Shown here: piece by piece, positions 46,529 to 57,031 of the stretch
Numbering within the stretch: the stretch's first letter is position 1
Layout of the letters: each line of letters opens with the position of its first letter
From: Roseomonas sp.
Lineage (GTDB): Bacteria > Pseudomonadota > Alphaproteobacteria > Acetobacterales > Acetobacteraceae
Length of the DNA: 64,000 nucleotides
Assembly: GCA_020249435.1 (NCBI GenBank)
Contig: JADCFQ010000009.1
Location: 1-64,000 of the forward strand
Reading direction: 5' to 3'
Program-made: the position numbers and the translations under genes
The notes under the pieces: model-generated
What the model was told of the DNA's origin: nothing
Databases searched by the model: none
What the model saw: the letters and a program-made list of their open reading frames with translations, nothing else

Positions 46529-46556
46529 CTCATGCGCTTCGGATGATGCGCATGAG
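46529..46556. terminator. Hairpin at the dnaQ/hemE convergent junction
   Basis: CTCATGCGC (46529-46537) and GCGCATGAG (46548-46556) form a perfect 9-bp stem with a 10-base loop, overlapping the 3' end of hemE just after the dnaQ stop. There is no T-tract. It may limit read-through in both directions. Confidence 0.4.
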
Positions 46557-47588
46557 CTGCGCAACATGCTCGGGCGGTGTGGGCGGGATGATGCCGTGGC
46601 CCAGATTGAAGATAAAAGGCCGGCCGCGCATGGCCGCGAGGATGCTGCGCGCCTCCGCCTCCAAAGCGGCACCGCCCGCCACCAAAGCGAGCGGGTCGAG
46701 ATTGCCCTGCAGCGGCATGGTGGCGGGCACGGCCTGGGCCGCCCAGCGCGGGTCCATGCTGGTATCCATGGCAACCCCATCCACCGCTGCGCGGGCAGCG
46801 TAATCGGGCAGCATGGGGCCGGCCAGGCGCGGGAAACCGATGATGGGGGTGGTGGGGCAGCGCTTGCGCACGACGCGGGCAATCGCGGCAGAGGGTTCGA
46901 TCACCCAGCGGCGGAACTGGCTCGGTGGCAGCAGACCAGCCCAGGTATCGAATAGCATCAGCGCCTCGGCGCCGGCTTCGACTTGCGCCACGAGATATTC
47001 GGTTGTCGCATCCTGCAAAATGCGGATCAGGCGGCCAAAGCTGGTGGGGTCACTGAAGGCCATGCCGCGGGTCGCCGCGAAATCCTTGCTGCCGCGGCCT
47101 TCCACCATGTAGCAGGCGACAGTGAAGGGTGAGCCGGCAAAACCGATCAACGCGGTTTTAGGGTGATGTTCATCCAGGCCAGCCCTGGTCAGGCGCACGG
47201 TCTCAAAAATCGGCGCGGCCTTGGCCAGCACGCCGTCCAAATTGAGTGCGGCAATACCCTCGGGCGAGCGAATGGGGTCAAGTAGGGGCCCTTCGCCCTC
47301 GGCAAAGCGGAGCCCCTGGCCCAAGGCCCAGGGCACCATCAGGATATCGGAAAACAGAATGGCAGCATCCATGCCATAGCGGCGGATGGGTTGCAGCGTG
47401 ACCTCAGCCGCCAGATCTGGCGTGGTGCAGAGCGAGATGAAATTCCCGGCCTTGGTACGCGTGGCGCGATATTCGGGCAGATAACGCCCGGCCTGCCGCA
47501 TGAGCCATACGGGCGGCGGCCAGACGGCCTCTCCGGCCAGAACGCGCAAAAAGGGTTTGGCCCGGCTGGGCTCGGTTTCCGTTTCCAT
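46530..47588 (-). CDS. hemE: Uroporphyrinogen decarboxylase
   Basis: A 352-residue haem-pathway enzyme that decarboxylates the four acetate side chains of uroporphyrinogen III. The substrate-clamp motif PPVWLMRQAGRYLPEYR is at about residues 20-36, ILFSDILMVPWALG is the conserved Asp region, and GFAGSPFTVACYMVEG follows. Full length. It diverges from ppsR across the candidate replication origin. Confidence 0.97.
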   Translation of the reverse strand: METETEPSRAKPFLRVLAGEAVWPPPVWLMRQAGRYLPEYRATRTKAGNFISLCTTPDLAAEVTLQPIRRYGMDAAILFSDILMVPWALGQGLRFAEGEGPLLDPIRSPEGIAALNLDGVLAKAAPIFETVRLTRAGLDEHHPKTALIGFAGSPFTVACYMVEGRGSKDFAATRGMAFSDPTSFGRLIRILQDATTEYLVAQVEAGAEALMLFDTWAGLLPPSQFRRWVIEPSAAIARVVRKRCPTTPIIGFPRLAGPMLPDYAARAAVDGVAMDTSMDPRWAAQAVPATMPLQGNLDPLALVAGGAALEAEARSILAAMRGRPFIFNLGHGIIPPTPPEHVAQLMRIIRSA

Positions 47589-47884
47589 GACACGAAGCTA
47601 AGCATTGAATCTAAGATTCTGAAAGATGAGGGTGATTGTAGGGCCTGTGGATGATGGGGAGGCAAGTGTTCCCAATTCCATCCACAGTCTTGTCCCGAGC
47701 AAGCCACCAAAGGGTTTGCTGGTATTATCTGATGGGACGCGAATTGCGCCTGTATCGGGGTATGCCCGCGAAAAATCATTCAGGCTTGCGCCGAGGCTGG
47801 GTTATGTCCCCATTATAGGTCAGGGCGGGACCGGTGCTGGAATCCACCCCCGTTATCCACATTGATTCACGGAATTCTCCCGCC
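47589..47884. other. oriC: Candidate chromosomal replication origin (oriC)
   Basis: This 296-base gap between hemE and the DUF299 gene ppsR is where the Caulobacter origin lies. It contains one perfect DnaA box TTATCCACA (47853-47861), an 8/9 box on the minus strand (TCATCCACA, 47646-47654) and a 7/9 box (CCATCCACA, 47678-47686). TCCCCA W-box-like hexamers are at 47807-47812 (plus) and 47655-47660 (minus, touching the 8/9 box). Four GANTC sites for CcrM-type methylation are at 47607, 47615, 47840 and 47864. The first 50 bases after the hemE start are about 62% AT, a possible unwinding element. No ORF fits here. parAB and parS sites are 4-10 kb away. Confidence 0.7.
47853..47861 (+). promoter_or_regulatory. 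Perfect DnaA box
   Basis: TTATCCACA, identical to the high-affinity consensus, 24 bases upstream of the ppsR start within the candidate origin. A GANTC site begins 3 bases after it. Confidence 0.75.
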
Positions 47885-48775
47885 ATGCCCCACAGGCAAA
47901 TTGATCTGCACTTGGTATCCGATTCAACGGGTGAGACGCTGCAATCCATCGCGCGGGCCACGCTCGCGCGGTTTGATGATCATCACGTGGTGGATCATCG
48001 CTGGAGCCTGATCCGATCCCGCCTGCAATTGGACCGCGTGCTGGAAGGCATCCAGCAGGAACCAGGGCCGGTGCTCTATACGCTGGTGGATTCAAGCTTG
48101 CGGCACGTTTTGGAAGAAGCCTGCCAGCGCATGGGTGTGCCGTGTCTTTCGCCGCTTGATCCGGTGATGGCGCTTTTGCAGGAGGCAACCGGCGTCAGGG
48201 CGCGCGAAAAACGCGCTGCGCAGCATGTGATGGATGCGGATTACTTCCGGCGCATTGACGCGATGCATTACGTGCTGTCGCATGATGATGGGCAGGGCAC
48301 GGTCGGCATTCGCAATGCCGATGTGGTGCTGGTGGGCGTATCACGCAGCAGCAAGACACCGACCTGCTTTTATTTGGCCAATCGCGGCATCAAGGCAGCG
48401 AATGTGCCGATTGTCCCTGGTGCAAGCCTGCCAGAGATTTTGAACGATCCACCCTGTCCCGTTGTAGGCCTCTACATCGAAGCCAACGCGCTGATTGATA
48501 TTCGCCGCCACCGCTTGAAGATCATTGGCGGCCAAGGTGTGCGACATGACACCACCGAATATATTGATCCCGAAGCGGTGAAGGCTGAAATCATCGCCGC
48601 GCGGCGCCTTTGTACCTCGCAAGGTTGGCCGGTGATTGATGTGACACGGCGGAGTATTGAGGAAACCGCAGCGACGGTGCTGCAATTGATGGAAGCCTGG
48701 CATGCGCGTCGGCGAGAAGCGAAGGCTGCCCCAGCACCTGAAGATCCCGCCGCTGGTGTGATCGGCAAGGTGTAG
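47885..48775 (+). CDS. ppsR: Pyruvate, phosphate dikinase regulatory protein (DUF299 kinase/phosphorylase)
   Basis: A 296-residue bifunctional ADP-dependent kinase/Pi-dependent phosphorylase that switches PPDK (or PEP synthase) off and on by threonine phosphorylation. It opens with [17 protein letters not shown]. The P-loop GVSRSSKT is at residues 151-158, and IGLYIE- and LYIEAN-like strands follow. The ATG at 47885 is chosen because the conserved HLVSDSTG follows directly. The target ppdK is present in this window at 37387-40059. It is the homologue of Rickettsia RP001, the classic origin-side marker. Confidence 0.94.
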
Positions 48776-51556: not shown

Positions 51557-51572
51557 TGTTTCACGTGAAACG
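51557..51572. promoter_or_regulatory. parS centromere site 1
   Basis: TGTTTCACGTGAAACG matches the universal parS consensus TGTTTCACGTGAAACA at 15 of 16 positions, with a perfect 14-bp palindrome at 51558-51571. It sits between the ferredoxin stop and the mnmE start, 6 bases before the GTG. It should be bound by the ParB encoded at 56174-57031. Confidence 0.92.
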
Positions 51573-52916: not shown

Positions 52917-54794
52917 ATGACGGGTGCGGATTTGACCTTTGACGTTGTGGTGGTGGGTGGCGGCCATGCCGGCTGTGAGGCGGCGGCAGCCGCAGCGCGC
53001 TGTGGTGCGCGCACGCTGCTGCTGACCCATAAGATTGAAACCATTGGCGAAATGTCCTGCAACCCAGCCATTGGTGGGGTGGGCAAAGGGCATCTGGTCC
53101 GCGAAATTGACGCGCTTGATGGCATTATGGCCCGCGCGGCGGATGCGGCGGCCATTCACGTCAAGATGCTCAATCTGTCCAAAGGTCCGGCGGTCCGCGG
53201 TCCGCGCGCCCAGGCGGATCGGCGGCTTTATCGGGAGGCAGTGCAGGCGCTGCTGCGGGCTCAGCCGGGCCTTACGATCATGGCTGGCGGTGCTGAGGGG
53301 CTGGAACTTGATGAAGCAGGCGCCCTTGCTGCCATCCTTACGGGTGATGGCCAGCGTATCCGTTGTGGGGCGGCCATCATCACGACAGGCACCTTCCTTC
53401 GTGGTGAAATCCATATTGGCGAAAAGCGTTTCCCGGCGGGCCGGGTAGGGGATGCGCCGGCGATTGGCCTCGCCTTGGCTTTTGAGCGCTTGGGCTTGCC
53501 GCTCGCGCGGCTCAAGACCGGTACGCCGCCCAGGCTGGATGGCCGCACCATTGATTGGGCGGCGCTGGAAGCGCAACCGGGGGATGACCCGCCAGAGCCA
53601 CTCTCCTGGCTGACCGAGCGGATCGGCAATCGCCAGGTGACTTGCGGCATCACGGCGACGACGCCCGAAACCCACGCCATCATCCGGGATAATCTTCAAT
53701 CAAGTGCTGTCTATGGCGGGCGCATTCAGGGTGTGGGGCCGCGCTACTGCCCTTCCATTGAAGATAAGGTGGTGCGCTTTGCCGAACGCGAACGGCACCA
53801 GATTTTCCTGGAACCTGAAGGGCTTGATGACCCGACGGTCTATCCGAACGGCATTTCCACCAGCCTTTCGGAAGCGGTGCAGGAACGGGTGGTGGCGTCT
53901 ATCCCCGGCCTGGCCCGCGCCCGCATCCTGCGCCCGGGCTACGCGATTGAGTATGATCACATCGACCCCCGCGCGCTGACCCCTATGTTGGAACTGTGCC
54001 AGGTGCCGCGCCTGTTCCTGGCCGGCCAGATCAATGGCACCACGGGGTATGAGGAAGCCGGCGCCCAGGGCCTCATGGCCGGAATCAATGCTGCCCGCCG
54101 TGCTTCGGGTGCTGCGCCCGAGGCGGTCTTTACCCGTAGTGAGGCCTATATCGGTGTGCTGGTGGATGATTTGACCCTTCAGGGGGTGTCCGAACCCTAT
54201 CGGATGCTGACGGCGCGGGCCGAGCATCGCTTGTCACTCCGGGCGGATAATGCAGGGCTCAGGCTCACTGACCGTGGAATTGCCTGGGGGTGCGTGGGTG
54301 CTGATCGGGCGGCGCACCATCGTGCCTTTGCCAAGGCCGTTACTCAAGCCCTGGTGCGTGCCACCGCCGACGGGGCGACACCAGCCGCGCTTTCCGGGTT
54401 TGGCATTACCGTCAATCAGGATGGCAGGCGGCGGTCAGTGCTTGAAGCGCTGGCTTTGCCCGCTGTGGCGATGGAAAGGGTTGAAGCCGCCTTTCCCTGG
54501 TTGCGGTACGTTCCCCCCGCCATACGCACGCAGCTCGAAGCCGAAGCACTCTACGCGCCTTATCTGCGGCGTCAGGAAGCCGAGCGGCGCCTTCTGGAAC
54601 GCGAGGAAAAGGCAGCCATCACGGAAACGCTCGACTTCGATGCCGTGGATGGGCTTTCCGCTGAAATGCGCCAGCGCCTGAAGGCCGCGCGCCCCGCCAC
54701 TTTGGGCGCTGCTGGCCGGATTCAGGGCGTCACCCCAGCCGCCCTGGCGGCGCTTGCGGTGCATCTGCGGCGCGACGTTCAACGTTTCACGTGA
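52917..54794 (+). CDS. mnmG: tRNA uridine-5-carboxymethylaminomethyl FAD enzyme MnmG
   Basis: A 625-residue FAD/NADH enzyme, partner of MnmE. The FAD motif VVVGGGHAGCEAA is at residues 10-22, then the invariant MSCNPAIGGVGKGHLVREIDALDG. Redox Cys and insertion domains follow. The C-terminal helical domain includes AEHRLSLRADNAGLRLTD. Full length. Its last codons and TGA stop are written inside parS site 2, and the stop overlaps the rsmG GTG. Confidence 0.97.
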   Translation: MTGADLTFDVVVVGGGHAGCEAAAAAARCGARTLLLTHKIETIGEMSCNPAIGGVGKGHLVREIDALDGIMARAADAAAIHVKMLNLSKGPAVRGPRAQADRRLYREAVQALLRAQPGLTIMAGGAEGLELDEAGALAAILTGDGQRIRCGAAIITTGTFLRGEIHIGEKRFPAGRVGDAPAIGLALAFERLGLPLARLKTGTPPRLDGRTIDWAALEAQPGDDPPEPLSWLTERIGNRQVTCGITATTPETHAIIRDNLQSSAVYGGRIQGVGPRYCPSIEDKVVRFAERERHQIFLEPEGLDDPTVYPNGISTSLSEAVQERVVASIPGLARARILRPGYAIEYDHIDPRALTPMLELCQVPRLFLAGQINGTTGYEEAGAQGLMAGINAARRASGAAPEAVFTRSEAYIGVLVDDLTLQGVSEPYRMLTARAEHRLSLRADNAGLRLTDRGIAWGCVGADRAAHHRAFAKAVTQALVRATADGATPAALSGFGITVNQDGRRRSVLEALALPAVAMERVEAAFPWLRYVPPAIRTQLEAEALYAPYLRRQEAERRLLEREEKAAITETLDFDAVDGLSAEMRQRLKAARPATLGAAGRIQGVTPAALAALAVHLRRDVQRFT

Positions 54795-54798
54795 AACA
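54783..54798. promoter_or_regulatory. parS centromere site 2, across the mnmG/rsmG junction
   Basis: CGTTTCACGTGAAACA matches parS at 15 of 16 positions. The palindrome 54784-54797 spells the last sense codons and the TGA of mnmG and also the GTG start of rsmG. It is 3.2 kb from parS site 1 and 0.6 kb from parA. Confidence 0.93.
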
Positions 54799-55378
54799 CG
54801 CGCAGGAAACCTCTGAAAGGCTTGCAGCCTATCGCAGCCTGCTGCTCCGTTGGAATGCTCGGATCAATTTGATTTCCGGGGAAACCGCTGCCGAAATAGA
54901 TCAGCGCCACATTGCCGATTGCGCGCAGTTAGGGCCGCTGCTGCCGAGGCAAGGCCCGGTCGCGGATATTGGCTCGGGCGCCGGCTTGCCGGGCATAGTG
55001 CTCGCGATCATGCAGCCGGACCGCGAGTTCCATTTGGTGGAGTCAGACAAGCGCAAGGCTGCCTTTCTTGTTGAAGCAAGCGCCCAATTGAAGCTGCCCA
55101 TGGTTCGCGTGCATGCCTGCCGCGCCGAAGCTGCAAAGCTCCCCCCCCTTGCCGCGATCACCGCCCGCGCCCTTGCCCCACTGGCGTCCCTACTGCCTTA
55201 TGCCGCTAAGTTCCTGGCGCCGGGCGGCGTCGCATTATTTCCCAAAGGCAAGACCGCCGAGAAAGAGTTGACGGAAGCCGCCCAGGACTGGCACTTCACC
55301 CTTGCGCGTCTTCCAAGTGCCACCAGCCCCGAAGCAACCATCCTGCGCCTGAGCAATATCCAACGTGTCCAGCCCTAG
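54791..55378 (+). CDS. rsmG: 16S rRNA (guanine527-N7)-methyltransferase RsmG
   Basis: A 195-residue methyltransferase that modifies G527 in 16S rRNA. The SAM site is VADIGSGAGLPGIVLAI. WNARINLISGETAAEIDQRHIADC upstream is typical of GidB. ARALAPLASLLPYA and LFPKGK follow. The GTG start overlaps the mnmG stop, and the end overlaps parA by 14 bases. Its first codons are part of parS site 2. Confidence 0.96.
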   Translation: MKHAQETSERLAAYRSLLLRWNARINLISGETAAEIDQRHIADCAQLGPLLPRQGPVADIGSGAGLPGIVLAIMQPDREFHLVESDKRKAAFLVEASAQLKLPMVRVHACRAEAAKLPPLAAITARALAPLASLLPYAAKFLAPGGVALFPKGKTAEKELTEAAQDWHFTLARLPSATSPEATILRLSNIQRVQP

Positions 55379-56177
55379 CCCCGCCCGGCCGAAAATCATC
55401 GCCATCGCCAATCAAAAGGGCGGGGTCGGTAAGACCACGACGGCGATCAATCTTGCCACGGCGCTTGCTACCACGCGCAAGGTTCTGCTGATTGACCTGG
55501 ACCCACAAGGCAATGCCTCCACCGGCCTTGGCCTGCCGCGTCAGGAACGGGGCCAGGGCAGCTATGCTTTGCTGGTCGGTGCCGCGCCCTTGGCCGAACT
55601 AGTGAAGCCATCACGTATTCCGCAACTGGATCTGCTGCCGGCCGACGCCGATTTGGCCGGCGCTGAGATTGAACTGATTGATGTCGAAGCCCGCGAAAGG
55701 CGCCTCCTGAATGCCTTGGAAGCCGCTGGCGAGACGCTGGCCGACACGGACCTGATCATCATTGATTGCCCGCCATCGCTGGGCCTGATCACACTGAATG
55801 CCCTGGTCGCGGCGGATGAGGTTTTGGTGCCATTGCAATGCGAATTCTTCGCGCTTGAGGGCGTTTCCCAGATTACACGTACCATTGAACGTGTCAGCAA
55901 AAGCTTGAACCCGAACCTTAAGCTTGGTGGCATCATCCTGACAATGTTTGATAAACGTAACAATCTCTCGGAACTTGTTGCTGCTGATGTGCGCGAATTT
56001 TTCGGCGAAAAGGTCTATGATACGGTGATTCCTCGTAACATTCGCATCACTGAAGCGCCATCCCATGGCCTGCCGGTGCTGGTCTATGATCATCGCTCTG
56101 CGGGTGCGGAAGCCTATGTCGCGCTCGCGCAGGAATGGATCCGCCGCGAAAAGCAACCAAAGGAAACGGCGCAATGA
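55365..56177 (+). CDS. parA: Chromosome-partitioning ATPase ParA
   Basis: A 270-residue deviant-Walker ATPase that moves the origin region. The motif NQKGGVGKTTTAINLATALA has the extra signature Lys of the ParA/Soj group. LLIDLDPQGNAS, DLIIIDCPPSLGLIT and PLQCEFFALEGV follow. It lacks the N-terminal DNA-binding domain of plasmid type Ia ParA, so it is the chromosomal Soj-type. The GTG start lies inside rsmG. It is coupled to parB by ATGA. Confidence 0.97.
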   Translation: MSSPSPARPKIIAIANQKGGVGKTTTAINLATALATTRKVLLIDLDPQGNASTGLGLPRQERGQGSYALLVGAAPLAELVKPSRIPQLDLLPADADLAGAEIELIDVEARERRLLNALEAAGETLADTDLIIIDCPPSLGLITLNALVAADEVLVPLQCEFFALEGVSQITRTIERVSKSLNPNLKLGGIILTMFDKRNNLSELVAADVREFFGEKVYDTVIPRNIRITEAPSHGLPVLVYDHRSAGAEAYVALAQEWIRREKQPKETAQ

Positions 56178-57031
56178 AAAAGCCCGCCCGGCTCGGCATG
56201 GGCCTTTCCGCCCTGATGGGTGATGCGCCACCGCCGCCAAGCGCGCCCCAAGCCGGCCCGCCGCGCAGCCTGCCAATTACCATGATCGAACCAGGCCCAT
56301 TTCAGCCGCGCATGGAACCTGACCGGCAGGGGCTTCAGGAACTCGCGGCCTCCATTACCGAACACGGTATCTTGCAGCCCTTGCTTGTGCGCCCGAAGCC
56401 AGGTGAGGCGGGGCGCTATCAGATCATTGGCGGCGAACGCCGCTGGCGTGCCGCGCAAATCGCGAAGCTGCATGACGTTCCTGTGGTCATCCGGGATTTT
56501 GACGATCGCATGGCAATGGCCGCCGGGTTGGTCGAAAACCTGCAGCGCGAGGATTTGAACGCGATTGAGGAAGCGGAAGGCTTTGCCCGCCTCATTGACC
56601 AATTCGGCCTCAATCAGGAAAGCCTGGCGCGCGCGGTCGGCAAATCGCGCAGCCACATCGCCAACACGCTCCGCTTGCTCAACCTGCCGCCTGCCATTCG
56701 CGAGCATTTGCGCGCCGGGCGTCTCAGCGCTGGCCATGCCCGCGCGCTCCTAGGCGCGGAGGAGCCGGAAAAGCTTGCGACACAAATCCTCACGCGCGGC
56801 CTTTCCGTCCGTCAGGCGGAAGCCATGGCCGCAGCGCAGCCAAAGAACCCAGAATCTCGACGGAGCAATGCCAAGGATAGTGATACATTGGCCCTTGAAC
56901 GCCAATTGTTGGAACGCCTCGGCTTGCAAGTCGCCATCAAGCATTTCGGCAAGGGCGGGCAGGTTACCATCAGCTATAATGACCTTGATCAGCTTGATGG
57001 CCTGATCCGCCTTTTGATGCCCGAAGCATGA
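56174..57031 (+). CDS. parB: Chromosome-partitioning protein ParB
   Basis: A 285-residue CTP-dependent clamp that loads at parS. The N-terminal ParA-stimulating peptide is KKPARLGMGLSALMGD. Box II GGERRWRAAQIA is in the CTPase domain, followed by the ENLQREDLNAIEEAEG box and the helix-turn-helix SLARAVGKSRSHIANTLRLL. The C-terminal dimerisation part ends in LDGLIRLL. The ATG at 56174 overlaps the parA stop. Confidence 0.97.
   Translation: MKKPARLGMGLSALMGDAPPPPSAPQAGPPRSLPITMIEPGPFQPRMEPDRQGLQELAASITEHGILQPLLVRPKPGEAGRYQIIGGERRWRAAQIAKLHDVPVVIRDFDDRMAMAAGLVENLQREDLNAIEEAEGFARLIDQFGLNQESLARAVGKSRSHIANTLRLLNLPPAIREHLRAGRLSAGHARALLGAEEPEKLATQILTRGLSVRQAEAMAAAQPKNPESRRSNAKDSDTLALERQLLERLGLQVAIKHFGKGGQVTISYNDLDQLDGLIRLLMPEA

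Follow-up and report, generated by a model that had tools for sequence, protein, structure and literature searches.

A probable hemE-type replication origin between hemE and ppsR in a freshwater Roseomonas-group member of the Acetobacteraceae

INTRODUCTION

Among the described systems closest to the locus analyzed here is Cori, the chromosomal origin of Caulobacter crescentus, which lies between hemE and COG1806 (PMC1914354) and whose W-boxes are weak DnaA sites that need a neighboring stronger box (PMC4468827, PMC4285127). In Hyphomonas neptunium, marker frequency peaks near hemE; parAB is ~7 kb distant, and there are two parS sites (PMC6650430). For Sphingopyxis, a prediction places oriC beside hemE and gives it a DUE as well as conserved boxes (PMC4741004). 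The basal unwinding system (BUS) of Bacillus subtilis and other oriCs starts with a DnaA box, which is followed by a short spacer rich in GC, a 3'-GAT-5' trio, and the unwinding region (PMC8287927). In Rhodospirillales, dnaA is described as not conserved near ori (PMC8116508). In searches of mostly non-subscription literature on origins of Acetobacteraceae and on DnaA titration in Alphaproteobacteria, no title among those listed concerns an origin of this family, which does not prove that none exists.

RESULTS

The hemE-ppsR gap and its contents

The DNA studied is a stretch of 64 kb (the window) within contig C62 (80,232 bp) of a 3.80-Mb draft genome that is 99% complete and divided into 62 contigs. 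Judged by PpsR identity, the closest named relatives (94-99%) are genomes from metagenomes, many of which bear the label Roseomonas sp.; Neoroseomonas and similar species follow at ~81-86%. Contigs labelled as Asaia bogorensis MAGs (L046, L047, L048, L051) encode a PpsR 94-96% identical to the Roseomonas-group protein, so this label is probably wrong.

The gap between hemE and ppsR covers 47589-47884 (296 bp) and is exactly bounded by the hemE start at 47588 on the minus strand and the ppsR ATG at 47885 on the plus strand. An earlier note on this DNA had proposed the gap as oriC on the grounds, among others, that hemE and a DUF299 gene bracket it as they do the Caulobacter origin; both genes are named as such by NCBIfam, and PMC1914354 gives the same pair. 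The G+C content of the gap is 53% against 62% for the window. That no gene fits within it, as the note also held, agrees with our results, since the two open reading frames that intrude, among those of at least 120 amino acids, are one at 47339-47779 on the hemE strand, out of frame, and a doubtful GTG extension of ppsR from 47834. The GTG start was set aside because the box-to-ATG distance varies among Neoroseomonas-like relatives, being 1-3 bp longer in most of them, which argues against a coding extension. An RNA gene was set aside as well, as an Rfam search of 47400-48100 gave no family reaching E 1. The features of the gap and its borders are as follows.

46530-47588, minus strand: hemE, boundary gene (NCBIfam TIGR01464, above cut-off)
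47589-47884, no strand: probable oriC, the whole hemE-ppsR intergenic region (gene calls, synteny, alignment; 296 bp in 18/18 close relatives)
47591-47640, no strand: candidate DNA unwinding element, AT-rich (lowest stability of any 50 bp in the gap; conserved alignment block)
47607-47611, no strand: GANTC, CcrM site (motif scan)
47615-47619, no strand: GANTC, CcrM site (motif scan)
47639-47641, minus strand: box-proximal DnaA-trio, CTA on the minus and 3'-GAT-5' on the plus strand (CTA 4 bases past the box)
47642-47645, minus strand: GGCC spacer from box to trio (compare the GC-rich BUS spacer, PMC8287927)
47646-47654, minus strand: left DnaA box TCATCCACA, 8/9 (motif scan, alignment)
47646-47660, minus strand: fused DnaA box/W-box unit TCCCCATCATCCACA (sole TCCCCNTNATCCACA match in the 3.80-Mb genome)
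47655-47660, minus strand: W-box-like hexamer TCCCCA, abutting the left box (motif scan)
47678-47686, plus strand: weak DnaA box CCATCCACA, 7/9 (motif scan; retained in some close relatives)
47807-47812, plus strand: second TCCCCA hexamer (motif scan; present only in most close relatives)
47840-47844, no strand: GANTC, CcrM site (motif scan)
47853-47861, plus strand: right DnaA box TTATCCACA, perfect (motif scan, alignment)
47864-47868, no strand: GANTC, CcrM site (motif scan)
47885-48775, plus strand: ppsR/DUF299/COG1806, boundary gene (NCBIfam NF003742, PPDK/PEPS regulator, above cut-off)

The motif scan recovered every site on which the earlier note had drawn: the perfect, 8/9, and 7/9 DnaA boxes, the four GANTC sites in fewer than 300 bases (at 47607, 47615, 47840, and 47864), and the two TCCCCA hexamers, the left one abutting the 8/9 box. 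The hexamers proved unequal, however, with the left conserved as part of the fused unit and the right, at 47807, confined to the closest relatives. No second perfect box occurs in the window. When up to one mismatch is allowed, DnaA boxes number two in the gap versus eight in the other 63.7 kb, a 54-fold density; the corresponding figures are 4 versus 58 for GANTC (15-fold) and 2 versus 15 for TCCCCA (29-fold). The two outer boxes, left and right, face each other ~200 bp apart, and alignment shows that both ends of the gap are forms of one unit, TCCCC-N-T-N-ATCCACA.

Across the genome, the fused pattern TCCCCNTNATCCACA has no second occurrence outside the gap, and the reversed-pattern control gave 0 matches. 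Perfect DnaA boxes are found 21 times, 5 of them (gap included) with a second box within 300 bp, so a box pair alone is not special. The comparison of clusters covered places with a perfect box. Of these 21, all but L295, which is near a contig end, could be judged, and the gap is the only one whose central 300 bp also include three GANTC sites. The dnaA gene sits on contig C14, and its locus has one 1-mismatch box in 4.3 kb.

Conservation of the gap among relatives

A divergent hemE adjoins ppsR in 110 of 111 Acetobacteraceae loci, a set that includes the window twice and some genomes twice, and the remaining locus stops at a contig edge; hemE is also beside ppsR in 29 of 30 class-level loci, these being the best of 137 genomes with a match among 193 searched. 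Of 80 ppsR loci on named contigs, 79 have both genes, in 18 close, 15 Neoroseomonas-like, and 46 other relatives, and it is these that we compared further.

Gap length is 296 bp in all 18 close relatives and 295-300 bp in the 15 Neoroseomonas-like ones. In an alignment of 34 sequences, window included, both ends of the gap are conserved and the middle varies. At the left are an AT-rich block and, in most sequences, CTGTGGATGA-N-GGGGA or a close variant, and the right end reads CCCC-G-T-Y-ATCCACA, mostly followed by GATTCACG. The left unit is present within 2 mismatches in 18/18 close, 15/15 Neoroseomonas-like, and 32/46 other relatives, being missing from the gap in 14 of those 46, and shuffling of the 46 gaps produced it at the same tolerance in 1 of 2300 cases. 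The right unit, with up to 3 mismatches to TCCCCGTCATCCACA, is found in 18/18, 15/15, and 16/46, respectively. The left box itself varies among the 18 close relatives, where it is TGATCCACA, exactly the Caulobacter G-box, in 10, TGATTCACA in 4, TCATCCACA in 3, and TTATCCACA in 1.

DnaA boxes (at most one mismatch) are enriched in the gap over the flanks in all three groups. Close relatives (n = 18) have 38 boxes in 5,346 bp of gap versus 45 in 258,152 bp of flank (41-fold), Neoroseomonas-like relatives (n = 15) have 28 in 4,491 bp versus 5 in 264,626 bp (330-fold), and the others (n = 46) have 63 in 15,650 bp versus 20 in 798,103 bp (161-fold), with a box at this tolerance absent from the gap in 7 of the 46. 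GANTC is enriched 15-fold, 11-fold, and 22-fold in the same three groups.

In the region corresponding to 47870-47885, Neoroseomonas-like relatives have a TATTCT-like hexamer separated by 6-8 bases from the ppsR ATG, with no recognizable ribosome-binding site. The ppsR message may thus be leaderless, with a -35 element over the right DnaA box.

Segregation genes and cell-cycle sites

To the right of ppsR, the window contains a chromosome segregation locus, with parAB and two parS sites within 10 kb of the gap, as the earlier note had it.

51558-51571, no strand: parS 1, GTTTCACGTGAAAC, perfect (motif scan; 3.7 kb from the gap)
54784-54797, no strand: parS 2, GTTTCACGTGAAAC, perfect (motif scan; 6.9 kb from the gap)
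55365-56177, plus strand: parA, ParA-type ATPase (below the NCBIfam equivalog cut-off)
56135-57031, plus strand: parB (TIGR00180, above cut-off)

Since the annotated parB ATG falls within parA, translation of parB probably begins slightly downstream of it. The genome encodes GcrA and a RAMA-domain protein of the kind typical of CcrM, and the GANTC sites are therefore probably methylatable. Exact CtrA sites (TTAA-N7-TTAA) number zero in the window gap and one across the gaps of the 79 relatives. The IHF consensus is WATCAANNNNTTR, and scoring of exact matches found none in the gap.

Strand asymmetry in relatives

The GC-skew check put forward with the origin proposal was run on relatives, because the genome itself is a draft in 62 contigs. 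Agreement with an origin at the gap is clear in one complete chromosome (G100) and weak in two others (G088 and G045), but in G102 the KOPS switch lies off the gap, and a same-genus contig (G104:C12) gave no clear switch.

G100 is 2,738,877 bp long and was sampled in 19 stretches. Its GC skew is positive in 10/10 samples from 0-1.28 Mb and negative in 9/9 from 1.40-2.54 Mb, with the gap at ~2.6-3.0 kb. A two-switch KOPS fit places the origin between sample mid-points 2.53 and 0.01 Mb, with no rival fit within 2 log-likelihood units, and GC skew and KOPS put the opposite switch at 1.27-1.41 Mb. In G088, where ppsR is at 0.567 Mb, the best switch falls at 0.53-0.57 Mb by KOPS and at 0.57-0.61 Mb by GC skew. 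Half a chromosome separates the two KOPS switches, but an origin as far along as 1.9 Mb fits within 2 log-likelihood units. In G045, KOPS switches best between mid-points 1.57 and 1.60 Mb, and ppsR, at 1.607 Mb, belongs to the second of these two stretches; alternative KOPS switches at 1.27-1.99 Mb are within 2 log-likelihood units, and a weak GC skew prefers 1.69-1.81 Mb.

G102 has its KOPS switch at 4.21-4.23 Mb, 58-78 kb from the gap (4.152 Mb), and every other fit is worse by more than 2 log-likelihood units. Its GC skew points to 0.36-0.51 Mb and explains little variance. In this genome (L146-L185), mnmE lies apart from mnmG, and parAB has a changed orientation with respect to ppsR, which suggests that a local rearrangement may have moved the KOPS switch. 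Over the 0.80 Mb sampled in G102, two boxes less than 300 bp apart occur nowhere except in the hemE-ppsR gap.

Several other measures of asymmetry say little. The cumulative GC skew of the window has its minimum at 42-44 kb, ~4-5 kb left of the gap, and was given no weight because it tracks coding strands and turns down again after ~54 kb. GC3 skew averaged over strands is noisy in the relatives except G100. Forward:reverse KOPS counts on the hemE and ppsR sides of the gap are 9:10 and 58:10 in close relatives, 19:31 and 25:30 in Neoroseomonas-like ones, and 81:70 and 93:90 in the others, and carry little weight because the sequences are related and show no general pattern.

The AT-rich stretch and the left unit

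The AT-rich stretch of 50 bases noted earlier was borne out as the least stable 50 bp of the gap, starting at 47591, and 0.2% of window positions are equally unstable. The minus-strand sequence of the left unit is TCCCCATCATCCACA-GGCC-CTA and leads into this stretch, so that a DnaA box, a 4-bp GC-rich spacer, a box-proximal 3'-GAT-5' trio, and AT-rich DNA follow one another as in BUS. CTA stands exactly 4 bases after the left box in the window and in 18/18 close, 17/32 wider, and 3/15 Neoroseomonas-like relatives, and 3-5 bases after it in 24/32 wider relatives. Unlike BUS, the first trio is CAA instead of CTA in 9/15 Neoroseomonas-like relatives, and in the window a strict run of three NAN trios begins only 15 bases from the box (the BUS rule being a spacer of at most 16 bp and at least three trios); across the gap set, such runs are no commoner than in shuffled sequence.

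DnaA boxes upstream of dnaB and at a plsC-like gene

DnaA boxes recur at two other places in the family. Upstream of dnaB (L299-L316; L304 in the genome studied), 15/18 Acetobacteraceae genomes, including this one, have a box (up to one mismatch) 99-137 bases ahead of the start of the DnaB match. Orientation is the same throughout, and the 18 genomes have 20 boxes in 5,400 bp here versus 1 in 74,262 bp of flank; in G088, G121, and G124, the box includes the fused TCCCC-N-T-N-ATCCACA unit. The conserved boxes suggest DnaA control of the replicative helicase gene.

The second is a cluster at the 3' end of a plsC-like gene (L334-L356), with 36 boxes in 8,800 bp versus 3 in 72,068 bp of flank. Among 23 hand-chosen genomes, of which 22 were judged, 17 have at least one box and 13 at least two, the outer boxes being 225-273 bp apart in 10 of these 13; no cluster was found at the plsC-like gene of the genome studied (L344). 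Because the plsC-like frame converges on chaC in 8 of 14 chaC loci examined, the boxes there lie outside the promoters of either gene. In G104, probably Neoroseomonas marina, a plsC-linked pair of perfect boxes (L232 3636-3749, equivalent to G104:C12:309636-309749) lies at a distance of 37 kb from the hemE-ppsR gap, with mnmE/parS 5.5 kb away. The simplest guess is that the cluster is a site of DnaA titration or reactivation.

DISCUSSION

We propose that the hemE-ppsR gap is the oriC of this freshwater Roseomonas-group Acetobacteraceae chromosome, at a probability of roughly 0.93. The origin claim of the earlier note is thereby supported, by gene context, the conserved footprint, the enrichment of boxes, a fused unit unique in the genome, and skew or KOPS switches in complete relatives. 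We observed the anatomy of the gap, its conservation and synteny, skew in relatives, and genes for GcrA and a CcrM-type RAMA-domain protein. The origin type is already known, and the gap adds one more hemE-type oriC.

The gap and Cori share hemE and COG1806/DUF299 borders, a few DnaA boxes with TCCCCA W-boxes, and an AT-rich block (PMC1914354, PMC4468827, PMC4285127). The window gap differs in being 296 bp long rather than 404 bp, in having TCATCCACA as its left box and the perfect TTATCCACA as its right, in the fusion of a W-box to the left box, and in its lack of exact CtrA sites, of which Cori has five, and of an exact WATCAANNNNTTR for IHF; in addition, its genome has dnaA on another contig. 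As with the peak measured in Hyphomonas, the gap is near hemE, with parAB and two parS sites in the neighborhood. The Sphingopyxis oriC, a prediction only, resembles the gap in its position beside hemE, its conserved boxes, and its DUE and differs in the order of elements.

From this arrangement we infer DnaA binding, a direction of opening, and a role for methylation. DnaA would load on the two outer, facing boxes ~200 bp apart. From the left box, backed by TCCCCA, DnaA-ATP would spread over the GGCC spacer onto the CTA trio and into the AT-rich stretch, so that the duplex would open at ~47591-47641 beside hemE and the helicase would be loaded there. Opening from the left box toward hemE is likely, a grade set by the finding that three-trio runs are no commoner than in shuffles. 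The middle of the gap may supply weak sites and spacing that change rapidly in evolution. CcrM methylation of the four GANTC sites probably couples the origin or the hemE promoter to fork passage, and ParB-parS, 4-9 kb away, would segregate the origin.

Divergent genes need promoters, and hemE and ppsR must have theirs in the gap, where the two left GANTC sites belong to the block nearest hemE and the right box coincides with the expected position of a ppsR -35; DnaA boxes do precede another gene, dnaB, in Acetobacteraceae. That the gap is merely this double promoter, kept through DnaA and GcrA/CcrM regulation of both genes, is nevertheless very improbable, as it leaves unexplained the chromosome-wide skew switch at hemE-ppsR in G100, the survival of the pair across the class with parABS nearby, and the location of the Caulobacter origin at the pair (PMC1914354) and of the Hyphomonas marker-frequency peak near hemE (PMC6650430). 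Extremely unlikely is a true origin elsewhere, at a dnaA-linked site or the plsC 3'-end cluster, with the gap an old or secondary site: the inexact KOPS switch of G102, the placement of dnaA on another contig, and clusters of 2-4 boxes at plsC in 13/22 genomes judged speak for it, but the cluster was not found at the plsC-like gene of this genome and, at 3.33 Mb in G102 (deep within one arm) and 157 kb in G100, is away from the switch and so not the origin there, while the single 1-mismatch box at the dnaA locus and the reported lack of dnaA conservation near ori in Rhodospirillales (PMC8116508) argue against a dnaA-linked site.

With the gap as oriC, a broader and more tentative picture is possible, in which an Acetobacteraceae hemE origin without CtrA sites has two facing DnaA/W-box units ~200 bp apart and a trio-type unwinding element next to hemE. 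Further targets of DnaA would be dnaB and, across many lineages, a mobile plsC-like 3'-end cluster that behaves like datA or DARS of E. coli. We consider this combination doubtful as a whole. If it is true, the genome studied, apparently without a plsC-linked cluster, should show altered initiation control.

Our analysis places the origin, at the strength given above, in an uncultured freshwater group of Acetobacteraceae. The signature of a fused TCCCC-DnaA box, GGCC spacer, and CTA trio offers a way to search for origins in draft genomes, where skew is unusable, and origins located in drafts would aid estimates of growth rate from read coverage. Retention of the Caulobacter gene pair without CtrA sites helps to separate the ancestral origin from regulation that came later.
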